From Lachnospiraceae bacterium (GTDB taxonomy: Bacteria > Bacillota > Clostridia > Lachnospirales > Lachnospiraceae): DNA of 36,629 bases. Position 1 is the stretch's first letter, and each line of letters opens with the position of its first letter. Location: the NCBI GenBank assembly GCA_022794255.1, contig JAAWEL010000070.1, positions 1 to 36,629 of the forward strand, given 5' to 3'. Below the pieces are notes generated by a model. The model saw nothing but the letters and a program-made list of their open reading frames with translations, did not search any database and had not been told where the DNA came from. A program made the position numbers and the translations under genes. This document shows positions 10,485 through 24,892 of the stretch, piece by piece.

Positions 10485-11480
10485 CTATTCACTCTGTACC
10501 AGCCTGGAAAACACTTTGTCATCCTCATACGTCTCACAGGCCTTTGCCGCCATGGCAATCCTTCCATAATCCAGATCCGGAGGCAGGGTGCAGTCACTTC
10601 CCAGAATAAACCTTCCTGGCTCCATCTGGCAGATAATCCCGTGAATCTCCCGTTCCAGCTGCTCATAGGTCCCTTCCATCCATGCCCCATGCCGATTATT
10701 CAGGCCGCCTAAAACCACCTTGCTTGGGAACAGTTTCTGTCCCTCAGACAGAGACACCCCGCTCTCCTCGATTCCCCAGTTCACCACATCGCAGGGATAA
10801 GCGGCAAAACGCTCCAGCTTTACCTTTGGCTTACACATATGTAAAATCACGAATTTTGCTCCTGCCCTGTAGGCTGTGTCAATCACCATCTGGTCCTGCT
10901 TTGCAAGATACTCTGCATGCTCCTCATCCGTAAATCCGTCCCTTTCCCCTCCTAAGGCCGCATAGTAGATTCCCTCTGCCCCGGCCTTTACCGATGCCTC
11001 TGTAACTGCGCACAGGGTAAGGGCAATCTTCTCATAGGCATCCTTCATGGTCTGAGGGGAGGTCCGAAGATGGTACAGCTGGGCAAAACGCCCGATGGTA
11101 TCATACCTGGGAATGCCCAAAAGCGTGTGGGATGCAGAAGCCACCACCCCGTGAATCGTGGCAACCGCAACTCCCTCGGGGCAATGCTCCACCACCTGTT
11201 TTATCACGTCTGCCTGCCGCACAATAAAGTCTGCTTCTCTCCCATACACCTTTACCTGCTTCCAGTCTGATGCTGCCTGGATATTATGCTCACAGGGGTA
11301 AGTACACTCATTCATAATCTTACAGATATCGGTCCGTGTCTCCCTGAAATACTTCATATGCATAGCCACCGCTTCCTCTCCATAAAAAGCTTTGGGCGGA
11401 AAATGCATCCAAAAGCCCACAGGAACCCGATCCGGCCGTTCTCCCGCCAGGACGGCTAAAACACGTTCTCTTCCATTCAT
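10485..11480 (-). CDS. UroD-like protein with corrinoid methyltransferase-type zinc motif
   Basis: This is a 331-residue protein of the uroporphyrinogen decarboxylase / cobalamin methyltransferase superfamily. It begins in the typical way (NGRERVLAVLAGERPDRVPVGFW). A His-x-Cys pair lies in VILHMCKPK (His214, Cys216) and a later Cys in FILGSDCTLPP (Cys297). This H-x-C...C set is the zinc site of MtaA/MtbA-type methyltransferases and is not a feature of true UroD, so a methyl-transfer role is more likely than haem synthesis. No corrinoid protein gene is nearby. The ATG at 11480 has GAGGTG 7 bases upstream; a TTG two codons earlier is too close to that site. It is the last gene of the liv-type operon, 110 bases after livF. 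Confidence 0.8.
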   Translation of the reverse strand: MNGRERVLAVLAGERPDRVPVGFWMHFPPKAFYGEEAVAMHMKYFRETRTDICKIMNECTYPCEHNIQAASDWKQVKVYGREADFIVRQADVIKQVVEHCPEGVAVATIHGVVASASHTLLGIPRYDTIGRFAQLYHLRTSPQTMKDAYEKIALTLCAVTEASVKAGAEGIYYAALGGERDGFTDEEHAEYLAKQDQMVIDTAYRAGAKFVILHMCKPKVKLERFAAYPCDVVNWGIEESGVSLSEGQKLFPSKVVLGGLNNRHGAWMEGTYEQLEREIHGIICQMEPGRFILGSDCTLPPDLDYGRIAMAAKACETYEDDKVFSRLVQSE

Positions 11481-11596
11481 TTTCAATCACCTCATCCATT
11501 TTTATCTGACACCTGCCGCAACGGCGGCTTTACTGCCCTGGTCCGCCGGCTTTCCCTCCCCATAGCCAGAACACAGATTCTGCACAAGCAGAAATC

Positions 11597-12310
11597 TCAG
11601 CCTCCCAGATAAGAAGCAAGGATCTCCTGGCTTTCCAAAAGTTCCTTCCCCGTACCGCTGCCTGTGATATGTCCCACTTTGAGCACATATCCCCGGTTGG
11701 CAACAGACAAGGCGGACACTGCATTCTGTTCCACCAGAAGAATGGTGGTTCCCTGGTTTCGGATTTCCAATATTAACTCAAAAATCTTTTCCGTCAAAAG
11801 GGGAGACAGTCCCAGAGAAGGCTCATCCAGCATCAAAAGCTTGGGGCTGCTCATCAGGGCCCTGCCGATGGCCAACATCTGCTGTTCCCCTCCTGACAGG
11901 GTTCCTGCAGGCTGGCTCCTGCGTTCCTTCAAACGGTCAAACAGGCAGTAAACCCGGTCATATCCCGCAGACAGTTCCCCTTTTTTGCGGGTATAGCCGC
12001 CCATCTTCAGGTTCTCCTCCACAGTCATCCGGGGGAAAATATGGCGTCCCTCCGGGCAAAGGGTCATCCCCAGCTTTACCATCCTGCTGGCCTTGCGCCC
12101 GTATCCCGGCCCAAAGCTTTCTCCGTCATAGACAATGGTTCCCCGTTCCATGGGAATGCTTCCTGCAATGGTTTTTAATAAGGTACTCTTCCCCGCTCCA
12201 TTGCTTCCGATCAGGGCCACGATCTCTTTTTCCTCTACCTGAATATCGATATCCCAGATTGCATGAAGGTTTCCGTAAAATGTATTCATCCCCTTAACTT
12301 CCAGCAGCAT
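11597..12310 (-). CDS. livF: Branched-chain amino acid type ABC transporter ATPase LivF
   Basis: This is a 237-residue ABC ATPase. The Walker A motif is GSNGAGKST near residue 35, the signature is LSGGEQQMLAIGRALM, Walker B is LLMLDEPSLGL, and the switch histidine region reads ILLVEQNA. Length and sequence match LivF, the second ATPase of HAAT transporters. AAGGGGG lies 8 bases before the ATG, and the start overlaps the end of livG by 17 bases. The substrate is unknown; the linked amidohydrolase suggests something other than plain leucine or valine. Confidence 0.93.
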   Translation of the reverse strand: MLLEVKGMNTFYGNLHAIWDIDIQVEEKEIVALIGSNGAGKSTLLKTIAGSIPMERGTIVYDGESFGPGYGRKASRMVKLGMTLCPEGRHIFPRMTVEENLKMGGYTRKKGELSAGYDRVYCLFDRLKERRSQPAGTLSGGEQQMLAIGRALMSSPKLLMLDEPSLGLSPLLTEKIFELILEIRNQGTTILLVEQNAVSALSVANRGYVLKVGHITGSGTGKELLESQEILASYLGG

Positions 12311-13076
12311 ACGTTTTGCCCCCTTTTCCTATATAGGCCTCAATCACCTCAGGGTTTCTCTGCACCTCCTTTGGAATCCCCTGGGCAATCTTTTTTCCGT
12401 AATCCATCACATAGATGTAATCCGAAATATTCATGACCAGGCTCATGTCATGCTCAATCAGCAAAATGCTGTAGCCCTTCCCCGGAAGCCCTTTGATAAA
12501 TGATGCCAGCTGGTCCGTCTCCTGAGGATTTAATCCGGCGGCAGGTTCATCCAGAAGCAAAAGCTTTGGCCCGCTGACCATGGCCCTGGCAATCTCTAAC
12601 TGCTTTTGTACGCCGTAAGGAAGGTTCATACAGCGTGACTGCGCATAACCATCCATCTCAATATCCTTTAAGATTTCCATGGCCCGCTCCCTGGCCGCCT
12701 GCTCTGCCTGCCGTTTCTTTCTTGTATGAAAGACAGCATCCAGCCTTTTGTAGGAGATACAGGACTGGTAGCCAATCAATACATTTTCCAAAACCGTCAT
12801 CGCTGGAAACAGCTTCAGATTCTGAAAAGTCCGGGTCAATCCCCGCTCCACATAGGTGTAGGGGGGCATATTGGATATCTCCTCTCCGTCAAAAAGAATG
12901 CTTCCCTCGTCACAGGTATAAAAACCGGTCAGAAGATTAAAAACCGTGGTCTTGCCTGCCCCATTGGGGCCGATGATGCTGACAATCTGCCCCTTCTCCA
13001 CCGCAAAGCTCATATGAGACACAGCTGCCAGACCTCCAAACGATTTGCTGACATCACACACTGTCAATAAACTCAT
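12294..13076 (-). CDS. livG: Branched-chain amino acid type ABC transporter ATPase LivG
   Basis: This is a 260-residue ABC ATPase. Walker A is GPNGAGKTTVFNLLTGFY, Walker B is LLLLDEPAAGLNPQE, and the H-loop region is LLIEHDMSLVM. The signature is the degenerate LPYGVQKQLEIARAM common in LivG. The C-terminal tail (IAQGIPKEVQRNPEVIEAYIG) is characteristic of LivG. Its ATG overlaps the livM stop by four bases, so the two are coupled. It should pair with LivF on the cytoplasmic face of the LivHM channel. Confidence 0.94.
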   Translation of the reverse strand: MSLLTVCDVSKSFGGLAAVSHMSFAVEKGQIVSIIGPNGAGKTTVFNLLTGFYTCDEGSILFDGEEISNMPPYTYVERGLTRTFQNLKLFPAMTVLENVLIGYQSCISYKRLDAVFHTRKKRQAEQAARERAMEILKDIEMDGYAQSRCMNLPYGVQKQLEIARAMVSGPKLLLLDEPAAGLNPQETDQLASFIKGLPGKGYSILLIEHDMSLVMNISDYIYVMDYGKKIAQGIPKEVQRNPEVIEAYIGKGGKTYAAGS

Positions 13077-14068
13077 CCTTTACCGTCCCCTTCCTTAAGA
13101 CCCTTTCTTTGACGTATTTTCCCCCAAACTCCTGTTCCCCATCTGCCTAAGGCCGTGGTCTCCCAGGACACATTTTTCCCCAGCATCAGGCCGATCAGCA
13201 AAAATCCATAGATCAGCATCCGGTATTTGTCAAGCCCCCGGAGGGTCTCCGGAATCACCGTCAAAAGAGTGGCCGCAATCACGCTGCCAGGCATAAAACC
13301 CATGCCTCCCAGCACCACCATACTGAGAATATTGGTAGAAAAATCCCCCACAAAAATCGTGGGCGATATAAAAAGCATATAATGGGCCAAAAGAGAGCCA
13401 GCGGCTCCTGCCATGGCGGCAGCAGTGGCAAATGCAATCACCTTTTCCCGGTGTACGTGGATCCCCATGGTCTCTGCCGCAATCTCATCCTCCCGGATCG
13501 CCTTCAGATTCCTTCCGTACTTGGAGTTGAGAATATTGTGAAGAATCAGATAAATCAGAAGAAACAAAGTCAGAGCCACCACCATATACTGGCTTCCGCT
13601 TTTGATTGTCACCCCAAAAAGCACGGGTCTTGGGATATTGACCAGTCCCATGGGCCCTCTGGTCAGGGACACCCAGTTTAAAAGAATCAGCCGCACCAGC
13701 TCCCCAAAGCCCACTGTACAGATAACCAGATATCCGCCGGAAAGCTTTAAGGCCGGTATCCCGATAAGCGCCCCGATCACGCCTGCTGCCATTGCCGCCG
13801 CGATCACACAGACCACCCAGTTGATTCCAAAATGGATTGCCGCCAGGGCAGATGCATAGGCGCCAATGCCGTAAAAAGCCGCATGGCCCATGGACACCTG
13901 GCCGCAGACACCGGAGATCAGATTCAGGCTACAGGCCAGAATAGAATAGATGCATACATAGACCCCAATCCGAAGCATATACTGATTCTTCACAAAAAGC
14001 GGTATCCCATACAGGGCTGCTATCAGCAATAGAGGCAGGATCCTCTTTTTTACTTTCTGTATTTTCAT
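13073..14068 (-). CDS. livM: Branched-chain amino acid type ABC permease LivM
   Basis: This is a 331-residue permease with about eight to ten hydrophobic segments. The family region CGQVSMGHAAFYGIGAYASA lies near residue 55. The cytoplasmic loop GRNLKAIREDEIAAETMGI, which docks the ATPase, is near 190, and VLGGMGFMPGSVIAA near 250. It ends in a basic hydrophilic tail. It lies between livH and livG with a 21-base gap upstream and a 4-base overlap downstream, as expected for one operon. Confidence 0.93.
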   Translation of the reverse strand: MKIQKVKKRILPLLLIAALYGIPLFVKNQYMLRIGVYVCIYSILACSLNLISGVCGQVSMGHAAFYGIGAYASALAAIHFGINWVVCVIAAAMAAGVIGALIGIPALKLSGGYLVICTVGFGELVRLILLNWVSLTRGPMGLVNIPRPVLFGVTIKSGSQYMVVALTLFLLIYLILHNILNSKYGRNLKAIREDEIAAETMGIHVHREKVIAFATAAAMAGAAGSLLAHYMLFISPTIFVGDFSTNILSMVVLGGMGFMPGSVIAATLLTVIPETLRGLDKYRMLIYGFLLIGLMLGKNVSWETTALGRWGTGVWGKIRQRKGLKEGDGKG

Positions 14069-14089
14069 AAATAGCCACCTCCGAAAAGT

Positions 14090-14974
14090 CTAAACCTTTT
14101 TGATCACCTTTTTGCCCAGCAATCCTGTAGGCTTTAAAAAGAGCACCAGAATCAAAATAATAAATGCAGTAATATTGCGGTAATTGGATCCGATATATGC
14201 TGCGGTGTACACCTCCGTCAGGCCAATAATCAGCCCTCCAAGAACCCCTCCCAAAAACACGCCGATCCCACCCAAAACCGTGGAGGCAAAAGTCTTTGTC
14301 CCGATAGCCGCCCCAATGGAGCAATCCACACTCCGGTAGGACATACAGCCCATGATTCCTGCCACTGCTGCCAGAGCCGAACCGATAAAAAAGGTCATGG
14401 AAACCACCTGGTCAACCGACACCCCCATCAGCTCCGTGGCCTCCGTATCCTGGGCACAGGCCCGCATGGCCATCCCCAGCTTTGTCCGGTTTATAAAAAA
14501 GGTAAATGCTGCCAAAAGAAGCACAGTGGAAACTACAATGACAATCTGGACCACCGTCACATGAAAGCCCAACACCAGAATACTCTGATTTTCAGCAATG
14601 GTGGGATATTGCTTTGTCTCAGACCCCATAAGAAGGAAAAAAACATTCTGCAGCACAATAGACGTACCGATTGTGCAAATGAGCATAGCAAACTTGGGGC
14701 GATTTTTCGCCCGCAGAGGCCGGATGGTAAGCCGCTCATTCAGCGCTCCCACTGCCCCTGTAGCCAATATGGTCAAAAGGAAAGAAAGGGGCATGGGGAT
14801 ATGCAGCAGAGTCACAAAGATATAAAACAAATAGGCTCCCACCATGTAAATCGTGCTATGTGTAAAATTCACCAGCTCCAATATGCCATAAACCATGGAA
14901 TAACCAATGGCTGTCAGAGCATAAGTACTTCCCAAAACCAACCCATTGATCGTATAAGCAAGAAAACTCTCCAT
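14090..14974 (-). CDS. livH: Branched-chain amino acid type ABC permease LivH
   Basis: This is a 294-residue permease. The N-terminus NGLVLGSTYALTAIGYSMVYGILELVNFTHSTIYMVGAY is the classic LivH start. The ATPase-docking loop TKLGMAMRACAQDTEATELMGV lies near residue 180, and the conserved STVLGGIGVFLGGVLGGLIIG near 230. It forms a heterodimeric channel with LivM. The gene lies about 45 bases after the amidohydrolase gene and 21 bases before livM. Confidence 0.93.
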   Translation of the reverse strand: MESFLAYTINGLVLGSTYALTAIGYSMVYGILELVNFTHSTIYMVGAYLFYIFVTLLHIPMPLSFLLTILATGAVGALNERLTIRPLRAKNRPKFAMLICTIGTSIVLQNVFFLLMGSETKQYPTIAENQSILVLGFHVTVVQIVIVVSTVLLLAAFTFFINRTKLGMAMRACAQDTEATELMGVSVDQVVSMTFFIGSALAAVAGIMGCMSYRSVDCSIGAAIGTKTFASTVLGGIGVFLGGVLGGLIIGLTEVYTAAYIGSNYRNITAFIILILVLFLKPTGLLGKKVIKKV

Positions 14975-15019
14975 ACCCCGCTCCTTTTTATTGATATGTT
15001 CCGGGTATTTTGCCCGTTG

Positions 15020-16216
15020 TTATCTGTCACATGGTTTCTCCCTTGTGCCTGCGGGCAGGTATTGGCCCTGAACCCAGACGCCTTTTAGACTGTCCCGATA
15101 GGCGGAGAGATTTTCCAGAGGATTTTCTCCAAGAAGAATCAGATCCGCATCTTTCCCCCGGGCAATCGTCCCGGTCTTATCAAGGATTCCCAGCAGATCC
15201 GCTGCATTTTTTGTGGCGCTGTGAATAATGTCTACCCTTGAGATTCCGGCCTTCTCCATGTAAAGCATCTCCTCCACAAAATCCCCCTGGTCCATCATAA
15301 AACCTCCGCTGTCCCGGCCAAATGCCAGCTTCACCCCCTGGCAGTAAGCCTCATACAGCCTCTCCTTCTTTTCCTCCACAATTGCCCTTGCCGCCAGCAC
15401 CGTATCCATCATTTGTCCGTGTTTTTCTCCCAAAAACGCATAATTCATATAGGGCTCAAAGGTTGGAACCACATAGATCCCTTTTTCCATAATCTTTTTA
15501 TTGATCTCCGGATCCAGATAGGTGCTGTGTTCAATGGAGGCAGCGCCAGCATGGACTAACAGCTCCATTCCTTCCCGGCTGTGACAGTGGCAGGCCACCT
15601 TTCTTCCATGTCTGGCCGCCTCGGACACAATGGCATCCAGCTCCTCCTGTTCCATCTCCACCCTTCCAGGCTTCTCCCCGGGCTTTCCCAGCCCTCCTGT
15701 CACCATAACCTTGATAAAATCCACCCCCAAGTGAACCATCTCCCTTACCTTGGCCCGGGCTTCATAAGGTCCGGTTATATCCGTCCCCGGCTCATGCCCG
15801 CCAATTACCTTGATGGGAGTGCCAGAGCAAAGCATACGGGGACCAATCAGCTTTCCTGCCTGAACAGAATCCCGCACTGCCAGGGTTTCCATCCACCGCC
15901 CGCCGCAGTCCCGAATCGCTGTGATGCCGCACCGGGCCATTTTTTCTGCATGGATTACACTGTTGACCGTCAGCATTGATTCATTAGCAGCAAAAAATTC
16001 CTGCATATGTCTGGTCCCGCACACCATGGTGCTGTGGGCATGGCAGTCAATCACTCCCGGAAGCAGATATTTGCCCCTGCCGTCAATGACTTGCTCCATG
16101 TCTGCATCCCTGGAGCCACTTCCTAAGGAAACAATCTTTTTATCTTCCACGACCACATCGTTGATCTCAAAAATCCCCGCCTGCCATACATGGACAGACT
16201 TGATCAGAGTTTTCAT
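15020..16216 (-). CDS. Metal-dependent amidohydrolase (Xaa-Pro dipeptidase / imidazolonepropionase-like)
   Basis: This is a 398-residue amidohydrolase of the TIM-barrel superfamily, cytosolic, with no signal peptide. The binuclear metal ligands are all visible: His59 and His61 in DCHAHS, Lys169 in DFIKVMVTGG, His210 in CHCHS, His230 in SIEHSTYL, and Asp302 in FGRDSGG. The set resembles the Sgx9260 / Xaa-Arg dipeptidase and prolidase group, enzymes that cut N-acyl or dipeptide amide bonds. The gene lies between the binding-protein gene and livH, so the substrate is likely what the transporter imports. The exact substrate cannot be read from sequence. Confidence 0.88.
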   Translation of the reverse strand: MKTLIKSVHVWQAGIFEINDVVVEDKKIVSLGSGSRDADMEQVIDGRGKYLLPGVIDCHAHSTMVCGTRHMQEFFAANESMLTVNSVIHAEKMARCGITAIRDCGGRWMETLAVRDSVQAGKLIGPRMLCSGTPIKVIGGHEPGTDITGPYEARAKVREMVHLGVDFIKVMVTGGLGKPGEKPGRVEMEQEELDAIVSEAARHGRKVACHCHSREGMELLVHAGAASIEHSTYLDPEINKKIMEKGIYVVPTFEPYMNYAFLGEKHGQMMDTVLAARAIVEEKKERLYEAYCQGVKLAFGRDSGGFMMDQGDFVEEMLYMEKAGISRVDIIHSATKNAADLLGILDKTGTIARGKDADLILLGENPLENLSAYRDSLKGVWVQGQYLPAGTREKPCDR

Positions 16217-16253
16217 TCCCGTGCCTTTCCTTTCTCCATCCCAAAGAATGATT

Positions 16254-17471
16254 TTATTCGCTTTTTAACATTTCCCACAGTCCTTCTCCTTTATACTGGA
16301 GAATCAGATATTCTTCCTCTGACTGACGGTTTATCCACTTATTTCCACCGGTCTTTCCATCCCAGTGCTCCATGGAAGTCATCGCTTCATAGAGCTCCTG
16401 TCTGGTGGTTGCCCCGTCCTCTAAGCACTGGGCAATCATAGCTGCACATTCATAGGAATTTCTCTGATAGGCATTGGGTATATTCCCGTCAATGGCTTTG
16501 CACTGACGGATAAACTCCTGGACCCCTTCATCCGGATTGTCTGCATAAAAGCCTGTGCTGACGTAAAAGCCTTCCCCTGCATCTCCCACCAGATTGGTAA
16601 AGTCCTCTGTGTACATAGACTGATTCCCCAGCCATTTCACATCTGTAAGTCCCGCCTGTTTTGCCTGGTTTAAAATGGCGGCACACTCCACATAGCCCAT
16701 ATTTACCACAATGACATCCGGCTTTGCTTCCTTGATCTTTAATACCATGGCGCTGTAGTCCCGAACCTCCCCCTCATTGAAGGTCTCCGATGCCACCATC
16801 TCACAGTCTGTTCCTGACCCCTTCAGACTCTCGATAGCGCCGGAGGCAAATTCCATAAACTGAAGGCCGGCATCATTGTTCAGAGCAATAAAGGCAATGC
16901 GCTTTCCGTCCAGCTTTTCCACCGCATAGCGAGCCATGAGTGCGGACTCAATGGGAATGGTCATCCCTCTCTGGAACGTATAGTTATATTCTGTGGCAAT
17001 GGCGCTGTTCCCTGCGCAGGGAACCATAACCGGCATCTGAGCCTCGTCAAAAATCGGTCCAAAAGCCAGCGTACAGGTGCTGGAATAGCTTCCGATTGCT
17101 GCAATATATTTGTCATCCTCCGTGACGATCTGAGCCATATTGGTGCTCTGCGCCGCATCCGCCCCATCATCAAATACTTCAAACGTAAGCTCTGCCCCAT
17201 TGATTCCCCCTGCTGCGTTGACCTCATCGCAAAGGGCGGTTACCCCGGTTTTAAAGGCATTGCCGTATTGGGCGTTGTCACCCGTGAAAGGGGCAATCAA
17301 TGCAATGGTATAAGCCTCTCCTCCCTGCCCGGATGCAGAGGTGTTTTCTGCGGCCAAGCTCTGCCGGGCCGGGCCTGAAGAGCCCTGAGGTACGGCCGGA
17401 TTTTCTCCTCCGGAGCAGGCGCTTAACATTGTGGCTGCCAGTAAGATTCCCAGTCCAATCCTTCTTTTCAT
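16254..17471 (-). CDS. Lipoprotein substrate-binding protein of the liv-type transporter
   Basis: This is a 405-residue periplasmic-binding-protein type I (Leu/Ile/Val-binding-like) lipoprotein. Residues 1-19 form a lipoprotein signal with the lipobox LSAC and Cys19 as the lipidation site. A Gly/Ser-rich linker of about 40 residues follows. The binding domain starts at YTIALIAPFTGDNAQYGNAFKTGVTALCDEVNAAGGINGAELTF. It is the first gene of the operon, 37 bases before the amidohydrolase, and is driven by a strong promoter at 17571-17599. It delivers substrate to LivHM. Confidence 0.93.
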   Translation of the reverse strand: MKRRIGLGILLAATMLSACSGGENPAVPQGSSGPARQSLAAENTSASGQGGEAYTIALIAPFTGDNAQYGNAFKTGVTALCDEVNAAGGINGAELTFEVFDDGADAAQSTNMAQIVTEDDKYIAAIGSYSSTCTLAFGPIFDEAQMPVMVPCAGNSAIATEYNYTFQRGMTIPIESALMARYAVEKLDGKRIAFIALNNDAGLQFMEFASGAIESLKGSGTDCEMVASETFNEGEVRDYSAMVLKIKEAKPDVIVVNMGYVECAAILNQAKQAGLTDVKWLGNQSMYTEDFTNLVGDAGEGFYVSTGFYADNPDEGVQEFIRQCKAIDGNIPNAYQRNSYECAAMIAQCLEDGATTRQELYEAMTSMEHWDGKTGGNKWINRQSEEEYLILQYKGEGLWEMLKSE

Positions 17472-17526
17472 CTTGTTCCCTCCATTTTCTTACAATGTGC
17501 TTGTGATTGATCGCTCTCCTCTTTTA

Positions 17527-17562
17527 TATACATCAATTTTTATTTTTAATAATTGATGTATA
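17527..17562. promoter_or_regulatory. Probable GntR operator at the liv operon start site
   Basis: A 12-base inverted repeat, TATACATCAATT (17527-17538) and AATTGATGTATA (17551-17562), has a 12-base AT-rich spacer. One arm extends into the 10-base palindrome ATGTATACAT (17556-17565). The repeat starts about 9 bases after the -10 box and covers the expected transcription start, a position suited to repression. FCD-type GntR regulators commonly bind TGTATACA-like sites, and such a gene lies directly upstream. Binding itself is an inference. Confidence 0.7.
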
Positions 17563-17570
17563 CATTATGA

Positions 17571-17599
17571 ATTATAACAATGAAATCGCAGTTTGTCAA
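17571..17599 (-). promoter_or_regulatory. Sigma-A promoter of the liv-amidohydrolase operon
   Basis: On the minus strand a perfect TTGACA (17594-17599), 17 bases, and a perfect TATAAT (17571-17576). It lies 84 bases after the gntR stop, so the operon is transcribed separately from its regulator. The leader is about 90 bases and contains the inverted repeat described at 17527-17562. Confidence 0.92.
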
Positions 17600-17682
17600 T
17601 TTATTTTCCGTTGTTTTTTATAATTTATTTGGCATTGTTATTTTCTTTTAAGACAACTATGACAATCGGATCTGATATTATT

Positions 17683-18303
17683 TTATCCAATATATTTTTT
17701 CATCGCATAGTTTTTGGCATTTTTTATGTGTTCAAGCATGTGTTTTGCCGCAGCCGCGTAATCATTTTTCAACAGTTCCTCTATGATCTTTATGTGCTCT
17801 CTGATCCCTTCCCGCACTCGTTCATCATTACTTTTGTATACGCGATTCCGGTGATCCATCCCTTCCACCATTCGCAGTACCTCCCGCAGATATCGGTTAT
17901 CGCAGGTCTGGTATAGCAGCTCATGAAATTCTTCGTCCAGATGGATCTGTTTTTGTGTGTCAGTTTCTTCCTGGCAGCGTTGGAGGTAGTCTTTCAGAAA
18001 ACTTTTGCTGATCTGCTGGCCGTATATTTGTAAAATCTGTGGCTCGATTATGGCCCTGGCGTCAAATACCTCTGCTATGTCGTCAATGGTGATTCCGCGG
18101 ACAATGATGCATTTTTTGGGAATAATCGTGACCAGGTTTTCTTGCTCTAACTTGTTGAGCGCTTCTCGTATGGGCGTTCTGCTGGCTCCGATTTCTTTGA
18201 TCAGCTCGGCTTCGTTTAATATGCTTCCGGGGATGTATTCACATTCTATGATTTTTTGTCTGATGATTTCGTATGCTTTGTCTTTTAAGTATTTGCCTGC
18301 CAT
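17683..18303 (-). CDS. GntR-family regulator, FCD subgroup
   Basis: This is a 206-residue transcription factor. The winged helix occupies residues 5-70, with the recognition segment ELIKEIGASRTPIREALNKLEQENLV. The C-terminal all-helical FCD domain (about 75-200) shows metal-ligand-type residues in DEEFHELLYQTCDNRYL, in EHIKIIEELL, and in HMLEHIKNAK. FCD members usually sense small carboxylates or amino-acid-like ligands. It lies just upstream of the liv-type operon in the same orientation and probably represses it in the absence of ligand. AAAGGAG precedes the ATG. Confidence 0.92.
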   Translation of the reverse strand: MAGKYLKDKAYEIIRQKIIECEYIPGSILNEAELIKEIGASRTPIREALNKLEQENLVTIIPKKCIIVRGITIDDIAEVFDARAIIEPQILQIYGQQISKSFLKDYLQRCQEETDTQKQIHLDEEFHELLYQTCDNRYLREVLRMVEGMDHRNRVYKSNDERVREGIREHIKIIEELLKNDYAAAAKHMLEHIKNAKNYAMKKYIG

Positions 18304-18376: not shown

Positions 18377-18443
18377 GCAGATGTTGAGGGGAATTGGTAG
18401 AGGGGAATTTTTTTGAGGAGAGAGGCCGGGTTTCGTCCTATGA

Positions 18444-18504
18444 AAATCGAGGTAGGGGAAGCGGCTTTTGTGCAAGCACAACACCGCTTCCCTTACCTCG
18501 ATTT
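18444..18504 (-). terminator. Long near-perfect hairpin after the DUF5717/DUF5716/TPR block
   Basis: The arms (18444-18464 and 18484-18504, core ATCGAGGTARGGGAAGCGG) pair over about 20 bases with one GU or mismatch position. The loop contains a second small inverted repeat TTGTG/CACAA. It ends with only four T residues on the minus strand, about 15 bases after the stop of the TPR-like gene. It probably stops or stabilises that transcript. It lies between the block and the gntR promoter. Confidence 0.6.
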
Positions 18505-18519
18505 CTCCACATCTCATGC

Positions 18520-19332
18520 CTACGCCATATTTCGATACTCTTGTTTCCATTGATAGATTCGCTCTGCTTCTCCTGCCTGGCGTTTTACAGGATCTTTCTG
18601 GAACAATGCCTCTAGTTCCTTCACCTGTTTTGAATCCCTTGCTTTTTGGCGGGCCCGGATTAATCTGTCATCCCAAAGCTTTTGCTGCTTTTCTGTGATC
18701 TCTCCCTGGAGCTCCTGGCTCAATATAAGACGACTGTCGATTCTGCTTAGATCGTATAAACGCTCTAAAATCACTTCCTGCTGGCTTTTTTTATAGGCAT
18801 TTTCAAAAGCCTCAAAGGCTCTATCCAACTGAAACATCCGGGCGTAACAAGACCCTAAATTATTCCACACTCTTCCAAAAAACAGATCATCCACATGCTC
18901 ACTGGAAGGCAATTCTAAAAGTTCCTTGTATAATTTTACTGCCCGGCCATATTGGCGAAGGGAAAACAGCTCGTCTGCCTTCATCCTCATAAAATCTGCC
19001 GGATGCTTTTTCCTGAGGGCAGCGGCCATCTGGCGAAAACGGCCTACCTCTGCCATACTATAGTAATCACATTCCTGCAAAATTATCATCAGGGCTTCAT
19101 CCGGATTCTCCCCGCTCTTTAACCACCGCTCCACCTTCAGTGCGAGAAAACCTTGATTGAGCTCCTCTCTGAGAAAGGTTAAAAGCCTCTCGTCCACAAA
19201 ACCGTCCAACACCAGCATGGGATGGTTAAATATTACATAGGACAACTCCTGGGAGGAATAAAGATGGATTCCCATGGATTCCATAAAATATGGCCGTTTT
19301 ACATGCTCCTGCCTGCACAACAGTAAACTCAT
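18520..19332 (-). CDS. TPR-like helical protein of the DUF5716/DUF5717 block
   Basis: This is a 270-residue cytosolic protein of unknown function. The N-terminal ~60 residues (RPYFMESMGIHLYSSQELSYVIFNHPMLVLDGF) are not repeat-like. From about residue 115 it is helical with TPR-like pairs (ADELFSLRQYGRAVKLYKELLE; RVWNNLGSCYARMFQLDRAFEAFENAYKKS). The tail is charged and probably coiled coil (GEITEKQQKLWDDRLIRARQKARDSKQVKELEALFQKD). Its ATG overlaps the DUF5716 stop by four bases, so the two are translated together. I infer a physical partnership with the Hsp70-like protein. Confidence 0.8.
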   Translation of the reverse strand: MSLLLCRQEHVKRPYFMESMGIHLYSSQELSYVIFNHPMLVLDGFVDERLLTFLREELNQGFLALKVERWLKSGENPDEALMIILQECDYYSMAEVGRFRQMAAALRKKHPADFMRMKADELFSLRQYGRAVKLYKELLELPSSEHVDDLFFGRVWNNLGSCYARMFQLDRAFEAFENAYKKSQQEVILERLYDLSRIDSRLILSQELQGEITEKQQKLWDDRLIRARQKARDSKQVKELEALFQKDPVKRQAGEAERIYQWKQEYRNMA

Positions 19333-20546
19333 AGCATAACCTCTTGTCTGATTTGTGTACTGGAGGCAGGAAACAACTCCCCAAAGCCCCGATCCTTTAA
19401 CGTTACTTCCATTGTCCGCTCATCCAGAAATAGTACCTGTATCTGCACTCGTGTGGTTTTCTCCGGCCTCTTGGGAAATCCTTCTAAGGGAATGGAGATC
19501 AGCCGCTTCTTTTTGGAATCCACGGAAGTCACAATAAAATCTACCGTGTTTTGCCGGTCCGGAATCACATCAATCACTGACACCCGGTCATACCAGCAAT
19601 CTCCGGCTGCTGCCACTGTCACATTGTTTTCCTGCCCCCGATGAAGCACATTCATAGAAACCGTGGTTTTCAGCCTTCCGTCACAGATGCAGGTAAAAGA
19701 AGCATTGTTCCCTGGCTCCTCCCCGGCACGGCATGCCGCTCCCCGGGCCATTAAGCCCTGTTCCATATACACCTTTCTCTTGGAACACAAAAATTTCATA
19801 AGCCCTTCTGCCCACTTCTGATCTGCAAACCCTTTCCCTGTAAGGAATATTGCTGAGTAGGCTTTTTTAGCCATGATCTTTTCTGCACAGCTAATCATAA
19901 TCCGATCTGCTAAACGGCTGCCGGAAAGGGTCTTTAAAATATCCAGGCTAAAGCCCTCCTCCCGATCCTCATACTCAGCCACCACAGTGACCTTTTTCAT
20001 GCCCCGCTGCACTTTCATCTCATAATACCGGAGCCCGGCTTCCGCCAAATCAAACATACCTACTGTGTTGTTCCATATCTCTTTTTTCTGGCTTAAAGTA
20101 TAATAAATAAAGCTTTCTGAATGACTGATCACCTGAACTTGTTCTTCCGAAATTCCCAAGCGCACGCCTAAATCCCGAAGCATCCGGTTCATCTTTGGAT
20201 CCAGCCTTTTTACAGTAAACACCACTCGGTCCGTCTTTGTCTTTTGATACTCCCTTTGAGGAAGCTTCAAAATCCGCTCAAGAAACAGAAATAAAAGCTC
20301 CTTTCCCCCATAGCGAACCTCCCCTAAAGTGGCTGTCCCATCCCGCATGGCAAGATTCAGCAGCTTATCCACAATAATTCCGTCACCTTTTAGCGTGTGA
20401 GCATAGGCCTCCTCCCCCACATACCACTCATCTGCATTTTTATTCCGGCAGATCACTGTGGGAATCGTCCACAACATCTCTTCCTCCGGGCAGTTGATCT
20501 GCGTATACTCGTCACACAAGTCCACTCCTACCAAAAGTCCGTCCAT
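19329..20546 (-). CDS. DUF5716-type protein with degenerate Hsp70/actin-like fold
   Basis: This 405-residue protein resembles DUF5716 proteins of Lachnospiraceae, which have no known function. The order of motifs suggests an ASKHA (Hsp70/actin) ATPase. A phosphate-1-like LLVGVDLCDEYTQI lies at residues 4-17. A phosphate-2-like VGMFDLAEAGLRYY lies near 163. An adenosine-like SAIFLTGKGFADQKW lies near 236, followed by QGLMARGAACRAG. The usual DxGT/S residues are altered, so ATP hydrolysis is uncertain. From about residue 280 the protein turns beta-rich, like the substrate domain of Hsp70. It lies 19 bases after DUF5717 and overlaps the TPR gene. Confidence 0.8.
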   Translation of the reverse strand: MDGLLVGVDLCDEYTQINCPEEEMLWTIPTVICRNKNADEWYVGEEAYAHTLKGDGIIVDKLLNLAMRDGTATLGEVRYGGKELLFLFLERILKLPQREYQKTKTDRVVFTVKRLDPKMNRMLRDLGVRLGISEEQVQVISHSESFIYYTLSQKKEIWNNTVGMFDLAEAGLRYYEMKVQRGMKKVTVVAEYEDREEGFSLDILKTLSGSRLADRIMISCAEKIMAKKAYSAIFLTGKGFADQKWAEGLMKFLCSKRKVYMEQGLMARGAACRAGEEPGNNASFTCICDGRLKTTVSMNVLHRGQENNVTVAAAGDCWYDRVSVIDVIPDRQNTVDFIVTSVDSKKKRLISIPLEGFPKRPEKTTRVQIQVLFLDERTMEVTLKDRGFGELFPASSTQIRQEVML

Positions 20547-20565
20547 AATCCATCCTCTTTCTTGT

Positions 20566-23500
20566 CTATATCACCCGAAACAGTTCTTCCATAGCCACGC
20601 TGTCTTCCACATACCTTTTCATCTTCTCCTTAAGCGCAGCCTCCTCCTTAAGCGTCAGGCAGAGTCCCATTTCATTAAGCGCCGCAAAACGGCTCCCCTC
20701 TGCTTTTTCCCGGCCTGGCTCCCAGGAGAGACTCCCCTCTTTGGCCAGGGTCAGCTTTTCTTCATTTTTTTCATACACCCGGTATTCCAGGATCTCCCCT
20801 TCAAACAATACCTTCTGCCGGATAAATATGCCTGGATATACCCGGCGCATCTCTTCCCAATGATACTCTTCCTCCTCCGGAAGAATCCGGATCTGAAGAG
20901 CCGGTCTGGCATCCCTGTTTCCCTGGTACTCTATAATCACCTGATCCATAATGGAATCTGGCATGGAAACCCATCTTCCCAGCTCCTTAAACCAGGAGAA
21001 TACCATCCCTTCTGCCAGAAGATGTCTGGTAATCACCTGACAAAGCTCCTTTCGCTCCCCTTCCAGCACTGGAAGCGTGGAGTAATATCTGGACAATGCC
21101 AGCAGATAGACAACAGGAATCTTGTCATAATCCGTGATTCCCTGGATCGCTCCCTCAAGATAAGCAAATACCCGGTCTCCTGCAGGCTCTCCTTTCAAAA
21201 AATATTCAGAGGATTTCATGGTAAAATAAGCCTTCACCAGATTCTCTCCTGTTTTCTTTCCTGCCACATACCAATCAAAAACGGAATCCATCCGGTTGGT
21301 CTCCCCGGTAAACAGCATCTGAGCCAGAAGACGCTCCGGCATATCGTATACCGTAACCCGTTCCCGTACTGCCTGATTTAAAATCCGAAACATCTGTTTC
21401 CCTGAGCCATTAAAATGCTCACACAGATAGTCTAGCAACACACTGTCATATTTGCCGGCAGAAAACAGATCACAGCAAATCAGTAGCAGCAGGTCATCTT
21501 CATCAGCCACTTGCTGTAAAATCATCTGACTGCACAGCTTTAAAAGCCGGGTCTTTTTGATGTCCTCCGCCCCATAGCGGCAGATCCTCACCCAGGCCTC
21601 TTTCATATAATCCTGCTGGATCAGAGTCTCACAGATGCCTGCCCGTTCCTTTCTGGTGAGCTGATCCATATTAAGGCCTAAAAGATACTCGGCTCCCCCT
21701 GCCGCATCGCTTCCTTCTGTCTCTGCCCGGTTCTGGTAATACTGAATCATACGGGAAAGAATTTTTTTCCGGTACATAGGTTTCAGCTTCAGATCCGCCG
21801 CGATCCGCCGCAAAGTCACCACATCCGGCTCCCCGGATATTCCGCAATCCACGATCTCGCCGCACTTTTGCAGCCGCAGCATCTCATGGCTCGGGTAGAC
21901 TTCATAGCATCTTTCCTCCAATTCCCGAATATTGTCCTTTTTCTCCATAGCCGGAAACTTCCTAAAGGGAATATTAGCATAGCGGTTTCCATAACCATCC
22001 TGAAACAAAAGCACCGAATGTTCTCTGAATAAAGGCACATAGACCATGCCATCCCTCACCAGAAATGCATCCTCCTCCTCCAACTCCTCATAGCTGACCA
22101 CCACATATTTTATATTGGAATTGTCAAGCTCAATCCGGCAGGATTTAAGAACAGCCGGTAATACACGGGCTACCCTCTGATCAATCATTTCCTTATAAAC
22201 CATATGCTGATAAAGCACCACCAGCCTCTGATTGACCCGGGCATTCAAAAGCTGTTCCATAGTAAACTTTTCGATGTCCCTCTCGTACTGCCGATACAAA
22301 TCTGAGTCTGGCTTCATATATTTTAAAATATTCATGTAAATGGTAGAACGGCTATGTTCATCCAAAGACTTCTCATAGGAAAAATATAAGAGAACCTCCT
22401 TGGGAAGTAAATATGGATAATCTGCCGGCAGGGAATAAAGATAGTATTCATACAATCTTGTTAAGCTTACCCCTTTATCCAATGCCTTCTGATACCAGGG
22501 AAAATATTTTTCATTGCGGCAATCTCCCTTGATCAGCATGCCACAGACCGCACTGAGAAATTCCTTCTCCGGATATCGCTCATAAAGCGCCATCAAAAGC
22601 CGGCATCCGGATCTGGTATAATGCTTGACCGTTCCAGCCAGCTCTGCCGCTCTCTCAGCCAGCTCCCGCTCCATAATCCCCTGTTTTACAGAAAAATTAA
22701 GCACCTGGATCTCAAAGCTTCCCAAACGGTGCATTAATGCAGGGTTTTCCCGGTATATAAAAAATGCCTGAGCATACACAAACGGACTACAAGAGCCCTG
22801 ATCCGCCAACCTGCCCATTTTCCCCAAAAGCTCTGCCGGATTTTCCTTAAGTCCCGGATCCACCTTCATCCACAAAAGAAACAAATAAGGGTGGCGGCTA
22901 TTCTCCTGAATACATTTCCTCACCAGGCGGATCAGTGTATCCCTCTGCCCTTCCTTTTTTCCCAAAAGCTGCAAAAGATACTGATAAAAGCAGTATAGCT
23001 GAGGCTGATCCCGGCGCAGATCCAAAAGCTCCCCCTTGCGCCCTTCCAAAAGCCCATCTGCCCGGTCAGTCTGGCCGTCAAGAAGGGCTAACTCTGCCTG
23101 TAAAAGCAGGTTAAGAGGAGTCTCCCCGCTTTTTTTGCGCAGATTTTCCACCTCCTGCTTCATCTGATCAATCAGAGTTCTCTCTTTGGAAAGTCCCAGC
23201 TCATACTGAAGGCGAAGCTTAAGATAATGTCCCAAGTTCTCCCGTTCCCTGCTGCGGGGTACCCGAAACTCCTCATCTCCGCCCAAAACCTCCACCTCCA
23301 CCAAAACAGTCTCCCGAATTGTGGAAATCAGAAGCGCCCCCAGATTCCTTCCGCCGTGAAGCCTGGCCGGATTCACCACATACCCAACCTGACACACCCC
23401 GTCCTTAAAATCCGATGGACCAAAAGATCTTCTGGTAAGATCCAGAAAGTCACCGTCTGCCGCCACCTGGAACTGCACATGTCCCCAGGTGCTTGCATGG

Positions 23501-24144
23501 ATCTCCAACCATTCTTTTACCGGCTTTTCCAGCTTTCCAATGGAAATATGGTTTTTCTCCACCTCCAGCTTTACCGGTTCCTTCGCCTTTAGAGCCACCA
23601 AAAACTCCTCTAACAGATTCTGACGGTTCCCCCTGTTTTTAAGGCCATCATATAATGCACGGATATGAATATCCTGCATAAAAGGAGCTTTGGCAAAATC
23701 CTGATATTCAAACAACCGCAGGGCCGTCTCCTGATCCTTCTTTGCAAGCCCGGCAAAGTCTGCTGCCGTTTTCAGATTCTCCAAAGTCCTGTCGGACACC
23801 TCCACCACTATGGAAAAAGAATACGGCACCTTATATTCCCCTGCATTGGTCACAAGATAAAGGGCCCCCGTAATCACATCCTTCTGGCTCAGATACGTAC
23901 TGTCGATGTCGAATGTAATGCGATTGCGGACGCCGCCGAATGCGTTATTGGCAACGCGGACACGTATATTGGAAGAATATACTAGGCCTTTAATAAAACG
24001 GCCTTTTTCATCTGCCACGGATATTATCTTTCTCGTCACTTCCCCGGCATGTACCGTGTCCGTCAATTCTGCCGGGCTGATAACCAGCCTTAAAGCTTCT
24101 GGTTCAACAATCCCCTTCGCCAGCCGGTTGATTCTTTCTCTCAT
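20566..24144 (-). CDS. Giant DUF5717-type protein (N-terminal beta domains, helical-repeat body)
   Basis: This 1,192-residue protein resembles DUF5717 proteins of Lachnospiraceae, whose function is unknown. It has no signal peptide and no membrane segment. Residues ~1-110 are beta-rich (VYSSNIRVRVANNAFGGVRNRITFDI...GEYKVPYSFSIVVEV). A second beta domain spans about 185-300. From about 310 to 1,000 it reads as an alpha solenoid of irregular helix pairs. A final region contains PALQIRILPEEEEYHWEEMRRVYPGIFIRQKVLFEGEILEYRVYE. I start it at the ATG at 24144, which has AGGTGG upstream; the frame is open to 24213 but without a site. It is the first gene of the block. Confidence 0.85.
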   Translation of the reverse strand: MRERINRLAKGIVEPEALRLVISPAELTDTVHAGEVTRKIISVADEKGRFIKGLVYSSNIRVRVANNAFGGVRNRITFDIDSTYLSQKDVITGALYLVTNAGEYKVPYSFSIVVEVSDRTLENLKTAADFAGLAKKDQETALRLFEYQDFAKAPFMQDIHIRALYDGLKNRGNRQNLLEEFLVALKAKEPVKLEVEKNHISIGKLEKPVKEWLEIHASTWGHVQFQVAADGDFLDLTRRSFGPSDFKDGVCQVGYVVNPARLHGGRNLGALLISTIRETVLVEVEVLGGDEEFRVPRSRERENLGHYLKLRLQYELGLSKERTLIDQMKQEVENLRKKSGETPLNLLLQAELALLDGQTDRADGLLEGRKGELLDLRRDQPQLYCFYQYLLQLLGKKEGQRDTLIRLVRKCIQENSRHPYLFLLWMKVDPGLKENPAELLGKMGRLADQGSCSPFVYAQAFFIYRENPALMHRLGSFEIQVLNFSVKQGIMERELAERAAELAGTVKHYTRSGCRLLMALYERYPEKEFLSAVCGMLIKGDCRNEKYFPWYQKALDKGVSLTRLYEYYLYSLPADYPYLLPKEVLLYFSYEKSLDEHSRSTIYMNILKYMKPDSDLYRQYERDIEKFTMEQLLNARVNQRLVVLYQHMVYKEMIDQRVARVLPAVLKSCRIELDNSNIKYVVVSYEELEEEDAFLVRDGMVYVPLFREHSVLLFQDGYGNRYANIPFRKFPAMEKKDNIRELEERCYEVYPSHEMLRLQKCGEIVDCGISGEPDVVTLRRIAADLKLKPMYRKKILSRMIQYYQNRAETEGSDAAGGAEYLLGLNMDQLTRKERAGICETLIQQDYMKEAWVRICRYGAEDIKKTRLLKLCSQMILQQVADEDDLLLLICCDLFSAGKYDSVLLDYLCEHFNGSGKQMFRILNQAVRERVTVYDMPERLLAQMLFTGETNRMDSVFDWYVAGKKTGENLVKAYFTMKSSEYFLKGEPAGDRVFAYLEGAIQGITDYDKIPVVYLLALSRYYSTLPVLEGERKELCQVITRHLLAEGMVFSWFKELGRWVSMPDSIMDQVIIEYQGNRDARPALQIRILPEEEEYHWEEMRRVYPGIFIRQKVLFEGEILEYRVYEKNEEKLTLAKEGSLSWEPGREKAEGSRFAALNEMGLCLTLKEEAALKEKMKRYVEDSVAMEELFRVI

Positions 24145-24251
24145 AGTACCACCTGTTTTGGTTTCTCGGTTGCATTCAATGGCAAACAGCCAAAATACAG
24201 CCTTATCTGCCATTTTAAATCGTATTTCATCTTATCTTAGCATATTTTCAC

Positions 24252-24280
24252 TTGATTTAAAAGGTTTAAATTGGTATGAT
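24252..24280 (+). promoter_or_regulatory. Sigma-A promoter of the DUF4364 gene
   Basis: TTGATT (24252-24257), a 17-base spacer and TATGAT (24275-24280) lie about 80 bases before the start codon. The 217-base divergent region between 24144 and 24362 must also hold the promoter of the DUF5717 gene. On the minus strand I see only a weak TAAGAT -10 near 24236. Confidence 0.7.
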
Positions 24281-24361
24281 AGAAAAAAAGTTATAATGGA
24301 AAGAGACTCCCATCTGTTATGACTGTTTCAGACTCTTATTTAGACAGAAAGAGGCGGCGCT

Positions 24362-24892
24362 ATGTTATCGGACCCAATGACACTTTATAAACTGATGAAT
24401 CTCTACATGCTCAAGCAGGTGAATTTTCCCCTGACCAATGCCCAGCTTACGGAATTTTTCCTGCAGCATGAATATACCAATTATTTTACTCTTCAGCAGG
24501 CCTTAAACGAGCTGCAGGAATCCGGCCTGGTCCGTGCCGAATCTTCCCACAACAGTACCCGCTATGAAATCACCCGGGAAGGGGAGGATACTTTAAGCTT
24601 CTTCGGCAGCAACATATCTCCTGCCATTGTGGAGGACATGGACAATTATTTGAAGGAAAATCGCTTCCGCATGCGCAATGAGGTCAGCACCATCTCCGAT
24701 TATTACAAATCAACCGCCCAGGATTACGTTGTCCACTGTGAGGTGCGAGAGGGAAAAAGTTCCTTAATCAGCTTAGAGCTCTCTGTCCCTGACAAGGATC
24801 AGGCAGAGCTGATGTGTTCTCACTGGGAGGCCCGCAGCCAGGAGATCTATGCCTTTGTGATGCGTACCCTGATGCGGGACCAAACCGAATGA
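24362..24892 (+). CDS. DUF4364 winged-helix protein
   Basis: This is a 176-residue protein matching DUF4364 (LSDPMTLYKLMNLYMLKQVNFPLTNAQLTEFFLQHEYTNYFTLQQALNELQESGLV). Residues 8-80 form a PadR/MarR-like winged helix: NAQLTEFFL and YFTLQQALNELQESGLV are the DNA-binding helices and TRYEITREGEDTLSFF the wing. The second half is an alpha/beta domain of unknown ligand. It is probably a transcription regulator, though no target is established. It is divergent from the DUF5717 block and could control it. GAGGCGGCGCT before the ATG gives a modest ribosome binding site. Confidence 0.88.
   Translation: MLSDPMTLYKLMNLYMLKQVNFPLTNAQLTEFFLQHEYTNYFTLQQALNELQESGLVRAESSHNSTRYEITREGEDTLSFFGSNISPAIVEDMDNYLKENRFRMRNEVSTISDYYKSTAQDYVVHCEVREGKSSLISLELSVPDKDQAELMCSHWEARSQEIYAFVMRTLMRDQTE

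Follow-up and report, generated by a model that had tools for sequence, protein, structure and literature searches.

Closest Described Systems and the Locus Studied

Several described Hsp70 systems share parts with the gene trio studied here, which encodes a DUF5717 giant, a DUF5716 protein and a tetratricopeptide repeat (TPR) protein and lies on a contig of a Lachnospiraceae bacterium (JAAWEL010000070.1; its whole analyzed stretch of 36,629 nucleotides is called the window below). Ssz1 of the ribosome-associated complex has a lidless Hsp70 fold, does not hydrolyze ATP and sits in a stable complex (PMC7083937). Hsp110/Sse1 is, like DUF5716, Hsp70-derived with a role apart from ATP-driven folding, but it is longer than the 405 residues of DUF5716, carries an alpha domain and has exchange activity. 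The DnaK-DnaJ-GrpE system shares catalytically intact Hsp70s and a GrpE domain with an operon from sister families, whereas in that operon Hsp70 is fused to VWA and GrpE to another protein part, a J-domain was not found among the proteins scanned, and the form found in the window has no ATPase of its own. Literature searches returned nothing on the present system, including DUF5716, DUF5717 and DUF4364. The comparisons indicate that the trio is what remains of the multi-Hsp70 operon of those sister families; the fold and descent of this reduced, ATPase-less Hsp70 machine are well supported, and the odds that it works independently of ATP, holding clients or scaffolding assembly, appear about even.

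Open reading frame (ORF) calling places the three genes in one cluster on the minus strand, transcribed from the giant to the TPR gene:

20566..24144, minus strand: DUF5717 giant, 1,192 amino acids counted from the ATG at 24144, which is also the start of the Pfam match
20566..24213, minus strand: the giant with its longer start, 1,215 amino acids from the first ATG at 24213
19329..20546, minus strand: DUF5716 pseudo-Hsp70, 405 amino acids, by its tree position the orthologue of operon gene B
18520..19332, minus strand: TPR protein, 270 amino acids, by profile match the orthologue of the TPR gene that closes the sister operon

The giant and DUF5716 are spaced by 19 bases and DUF5716 and the TPR gene overlap by 4 bases, values that the first-pass annotation of this DNA, made from the letters alone, had also given. 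The nucleotide substitution ratios indicate that all three genes are under purifying selection, with dN/dS values against five close relatives of 0.06-0.11 for the giant and 0.04-0.08 for DUF5716, and a pN/pS of 0.13-0.18 for the TPR gene, for which dS was saturated. A Kyte-Doolittle scan predicted 0 transmembrane segments in each of the three products.

DUF5716, an Hsp70 Without Catalytic Residues

The DUF5716 protein matches PF18980 (DUF5716_C; E 3e-96). Its AlphaFold2 model (pLDDT 91, pTM 0.88) resembles DnaK and yeast Ssz1 in structure comparison, has the actin-like nucleotide-binding-domain (NBD) fold and aligns over residues 3-405 to DnaK residues 2-503 of 7kru_A. Two features were mapped onto the window:

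19332..19697, minus strand: sandwich resembling the beta part of the substrate-binding domain (SBD-beta), approximately residues 284-405, AlphaFold2 model
19929..19961, minus strand: approximate site of the missing subdomain IIB, residues 196-206

None of the 61 DUF5716 rows keeps all five catalytic residues T11, K70, E171, T199 and D201 (numbered after E. coli DnaK) and 58/61 keep none; the window protein has D11, L70, H171, G199 and R201 at these positions. The phosphate loops are lost together with K70. The stretch from the second phosphate motif to the adenosine motif is 143 residues long in DnaK and has a median length of 144 in operon gene B, versus a median of 71 in DUF5716, where the spacing is at most 90 residues in 60/60 rows of the window family and 139 in the row from the sister family f60. 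The segment that is gone corresponds to residues 187-264 of this genome's DnaK, which is most of subdomain IIB under the limits that we assume for it in DnaK. The lid (SBD-alpha) has no counterpart either, as DnaK positions 498-610 are filled in <20% of the DUF5716 rows, and it is missing from gene B too. Alignment and model together show DUF5716 as an Hsp70 by descent that kept the NBD core and the SBD-beta sandwich and lost the hydrolysis residues, the lid and IIB, and that probably can no longer burn ATP.

A Multi-Hsp70 Operon in Sister Families

The larger operon was studied at 21 loci, drawn from ten families of the order besides that of the window. In full it has eight genes: a beta-domain protein (BETA), a TPR solenoid, Hsp70-A, a GrpE fusion, the pseudo-Hsp70 gene B, Hsp70-C, Hsp70-D (an Hsp70-VWA fusion) and a TPR gene. 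The run A, GrpE fusion, B, C, D lies on one strand in 17/21 loci; of the four others, L091 and L098 are cut by contig edges, whereas the operon is reduced in the f68 loci L094 and L095. In L094 (L094:5816-10912) the operon is cut to BETA, solenoid and B, a reduction like that in the window family. A homologue of DUF5717 precedes Hsp70-A, either as two genes (BETA of ~400 and solenoid of ~900 amino acids) or as one ORF, and in the three f73 loci a single ORF of 931-1,006 amino acids replaces both. A TPR-class gene follows Hsp70-D in 16/17 full loci, the corresponding ORF of L136 being without a match.

In the L103/L130 operon, Pfam recognizes PF18984 and PF18983 in the first genes, HSP70 in Hsp70-A (5e-76) and Hsp70-C (7e-63), a C-terminal GrpE (3e-13) in the 644-amino-acid GrpE fusion, DUF5716_C (1.5e-26) and HSP70 (1.4e-17) in gene B, HSP70 (4.5e-96) and VWA (1.9e-10) in Hsp70-D, and TPR (5e-26) in the last gene. 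Gene B of L108 is weakly recognized, at 16 bits, and Pfam does not match it. The VWA domain of Hsp70-D is C-terminal (L130:17495-19573 and relatives; 66-89% identity to the first row, 11 aligned rows) and contains DTTGSM, presumably a MIDAS-type motif. The operon Hsp70s score under the DnaK and HscA equivalog cut-offs, and Hsp70-A and Hsp70-C do not reach the C-terminal length of DnaK. The full set of five catalytic residues is present in 20/20 rows of A, 16/16 of C and 11/12 of D (the failing row being without its N-terminus), versus 0/17 in gene B.

A maximum likelihood tree built from 75 Hsp70-like rows places gene B of f60 as the sister of 47 DUF5716 rows of the window family (support 100/99). 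Hsp70-A and Hsp70-C form separate clades, and gene B of families other than f60 falls outside. By this placement DUF5716 is the orthologue of gene B. The TPR protein has a Pfam match to TPR_2 (E 1.4e-7), and its family profile can be aligned to that of the sister TPR genes with a probability of 99.9% (E 1.4e-31). Some loci of both groups also include a divergent aminotransferase gene (Pfam) upstream and a synthetase gene downstream. The latter lies directly past the TPR gene in a number of relatives and ~8.6 kb onward in the window, where a GntR gene and a transporter-like operon intervene. Since tree, TPR profile match and flanks agree, the trio most likely descends from the larger operon. 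That the window family fused BETA and solenoid and retained B and the TPR gene is a well supported, though indirect, reading of these sequences, and reduction is favored over expansion because the full operon is present both in f60, which the tree joins to the window family, and in families that branch outside this pair. Hsp70-A, the GrpE fusion and C were not found in the family loci read, in the bacterium's own genome or among 20 ORFs. Hsp70-D was not found either, and among the matches listed by a search for Hsp70-VWA in 60 family genomes one extends into the VWA part (G179, profile positions 436-584, ORF of 1,117 amino acids), without a nucleotide domain. The GrpE fusion and the Hsp70s with intact catalytic residues appear lost.

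GrpE opens DnaK through rotation of IIB, according to a review (PMC4753570), so that in the lineage without the operon's GrpE both this GrpE and the part that GrpE moves are missing together. It could be argued that DUF5716, as an Hsp70-derived protein, acts like Hsp110 as a regulator or exchange factor for the general DnaK or for HscC, with the giant and the TPR protein bringing that Hsp70 to a site. This seems quite unlikely, since its model has no Hsp110 alpha domain, IIB is gone and gene B stands beside a GrpE fusion in the sister operons.

Distribution and Coupling of the Trio

Of the 150 genomes of the window family, 148 have DUF5717 (by its C-terminal model) and 148 have DUF5716, and the two genomes without them are the same (G211 and G215), so that 0/150 hold either alone. 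The pair lies close on a single contig in 145/148 genomes, as read from the match tables. Contig ends separate it in G152 and G180, and in G170 the giant is relocated, with DUF5716 and the TPR gene remaining together elsewhere. The gene for valyl-tRNA synthetase, identified by eye, is contig-internal in both G211 and G215 with other genes alongside, and five profiles detected no trio homologue beside it; the loss therefore looks real. We count loss of a linked pair from one genome as one event, not two.

Among 147 class genomes PF18983 and PF18980 each occur in five, all from the window's family, and in 0/142 outside it; PF18984 occurs in 4/299 phylum genomes, each a member of that family, and in 68/147 order genomes (19 from the window family, 49 from other families). 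The solenoid profile matched eight genomes outside the order among 292 class genomes, weakly (E 7e-9 to 5e-4) and in ORFs of 225-347 amino acids, which we read as generic TPR matches; this search is incompletely sensitive, as it missed the family genomes G098 and G260.

Gene order was followed in 80 loci of named relatives, kept out of 122. Most of these relatives carry the title Lachnospiraceae or a genus name that we assign to it (Lacrimispora, Enterocloster and Hungatella), and on this ground the window family is taken to be Lachnospiraceae, in the order Lachnospirales. The order giant, DUF5716, TPR gene is kept on one strand in 70/80. DUF5716 and the TPR gene are fused in L247, and the remaining nine have a different ORF called next or a contig end. 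Natural DUF5716-TPR fusions occur at four separate places of the DUF5716 tree, read by eye (L110-L113, L114, L115 and L247), whereas an automatic count that omitted the unlabelled rows gave 1. An alignment that combined a natural fusion with rows holding DUF5716 or TPR alone was visibly misaligned and is excluded. The fusions, the joint absence, the conserved order and the retention of all three genes in G170, where the giant is unlinked, point to a shared function, and the products probably form a complex. Two loci titled Paenibacillaceae (L188 and L191) are very like that of Lacrimispora and probably come from mislabelled assemblies.

This distribution also bears on a relation to GAP1-N2 GTPase-centred conflict systems, from which the system might derive or within which it might lie. 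The part list is similar: HSP70, GrpE, a second HSP70 and an FNIII-TPR (beta-sandwich-TPR) fusion belong to them (PMC7159879). The beta domains of the giant resemble ASH/PapD, though beta sandwiches are common. No GTPase or GAP1 was found among the operon proteins and the part of the flanking ORFs scanned, and the system is restricted to the order, single copy and near-universal in one family. PADLOC matched only generic Hsp70 or TPR, on which ground a defence system was rejected, and a GAP1-N2 origin is extremely unlikely.

The Giant and the Proposed Mechanism

The giant matches PF18984 (E 7e-263) and PF18983 (E 1e-84). Its AlphaFold2 model (pLDDT 85.3, pTM 0.56) predicts the following domains:

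23800..24093, minus strand: first beta sandwich, PapD-like, approximately residues 18-115
23278..23580, minus strand: second beta sandwich, ASH/PapD-like, approximately residues 189-289
20947..23253, minus strand: helical (TPR-like) solenoid, approximately residues 298-1066

A small beta domain (residues 668-731) interrupts the solenoid. The sister solenoid profile matches TPR structures (best E 1.2e-8), and no solved-structure relative was found by the profile of the giant (best E 0.16) or of the BETA protein (best E 0.49).

We propose that the three products form one stable assembly, in which the giant, with its two ASH/PapD-like sandwiches and TPR solenoid, would be the platform and the TPR protein would dock onto DUF5716. 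Without an ATP cycle, DUF5716 would be a fixed client-binding or client-presenting subunit, comparable to Ssz1 in the ribosome-associated complex. The assembly may act alone, as a holdase or scaffold, or pass clients to the general DnaK or HscC. The trio would then be a dedicated Hsp70 machine without ATPases or exchange factor of its own, whose dead Hsp70, TPR and ASH-TPR partners make up an ATP-independent holdase or assembly complex that nearly all members of a dominant gut family retain, with IIB deleted where the operon's GrpE was lost. We give this reading a probability of about 0.5. The likeness to Ssz1, which includes absence of the lid and loss of hydrolysis residues, would be convergent: Ssz1 binds ATP, has the J-protein Zuo1 as partner and works on ribosomes, whereas DUF5716 lacks IIB, has no J-domain gene found with it and descends from a bacterial operon gene.

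Several observations weigh against this proposal. No J-domain was matched by Pfam among the operon proteins scanned, which makes the parallel with Ssz1/Zuo1 partial, and Ssz1 and DnaK tie as best structural match of DUF5716, Ssz1 being no better than DnaK. The pTM of only 0.56 makes the domain layout of the giant uncertain. That the family lost A, C and the GrpE fusion is judged from the loci examined, this bacterium's genome and the 20 ORFs, not from a family-wide survey, and G211 and G215 are viable without the machine. Lastly, D8 is kept in 53/61 DUF5716 rows, so that nonhydrolytic ATP binding is possible, and the adenosine-motif glycine (DnaK G341) in 60/61. DUF5716 might thus bind ATP as a structural or switching ligand, as Ssz1 binds without hydrolyzing it (PMC7083937), but with phosphate loops, K70 and IIB gone this is very unlikely.

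The first-pass annotation had described a giant with N-terminal beta domains and a solenoid, a degenerate Hsp70/actin-like protein and a TPR-like third protein. Models, structure comparison, the TPR_2 match and the profile alignment agree with these identities, including the ASKHA fold of DUF5716. It had also held that the three genes belong together and had named independent occurrence as evidence to the contrary; joint absence, gene order and natural fusions side with it. Loss of catalysis and origin from a larger operon were missing from that account. Its suggestion of a chaperone or assembly system is favored by the Hsp70 fold and the operon descent, and the holdase or scaffold role itself stands at about an even chance.

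Neighboring Genes

Two further elements flank the trio:

24362..24892, plus strand: DUF4364 gene (PF14277, E 8e-62)
18441..18506, minus strand: long hairpin past the TPR gene, probable terminator

The hairpin, already proposed as the cluster end at first pass, is real: its minimum free energy is -46.6 kcal/mol versus -26.35 +/- 3.38 for shuffled sequences (n=200; z -5.99), with 0/200 equally good. It was absent from the output of a simple terminator scan. DUF4364 had been put forward for co-occurrence with the trio. However, it is present in 105/118 class genomes versus 5/147 for DUF5717, and in G023 it lies ~112 kb from the trio, so that it is an independent neighbor and was ruled out as fourth member or partner. 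Downstream, positions 10485-18303 hold the transporter-like operon, probably for branched-chain amino acids as judged by eye, and a GntR/FCD regulator. Elsewhere in this genome an HscC-like Hsp70 (563 amino acids) stands beside a 1,170-amino-acid protein whose start looks J-domain-like by eye (L154:8783-14192).

Membrane genes adjoin the operon in some relatives. Next after the TPR gene, sister loci of f60, f62 and f73 encode a protein of 362-405 amino acids that has 1-2 predicted transmembrane (TM) segments and, as judged by eye, coiled coils. It is present, at least in part, in 15/30 family loci (L040-L069). It is a candidate ninth operon gene:

L121:12083-13291; L134:15192-16352; L135:1525-2628; L136:15836-16924
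L137:16099-17238; L138:2438-3646; L139:5226-6443

Another TM gene (cluster C9; 331-482 amino acids, 1-3 predicted TM segments, weak Pfam matches in the one scanned) stands upstream of BETA in six sister loci (L097, L098, L099, L100, L101 and L109). Homology between the upstream and downstream genes was ruled out by hhalign (probability 0.9%). The ancestral machine may have been membrane-tethered. These neighbors, together with the ASH/PapD-like domains and TPR solenoid of the giant, would also fit a membrane or envelope scaffold without chaperone activity, in which the Hsp70 fold would do no more than mediate protein-protein contacts. We regard this as unlikely, since neither the window nor any of the 80 named loci was found to have the 362-405 amino acid gene at this place and the sister operon has three catalytically intact Hsp70s and a GrpE domain.

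Implications

DUF5716 and DUF5717, so far families of unknown function, can now be seen as what is left of a multi-Hsp70 operon that had not been described, and their role thereby becomes open to direct testing. With its Hsp70-VWA and GrpE fusions, the operon of the sister families is a further chaperone system yet to be characterized. In the review cited above, GrpE is the sole exchange factor encoded by eubacterial genomes (PMC4753570), a statement against which the operon's GrpE-domain fusion is worth setting. The reduced form offers a natural experiment on what persists of an Hsp70 machine once ATP turnover has been dropped. As the trio is near-universal in the family examined, what a deletion mutant shows would be relevant to the biology of major gut bacteria in general.
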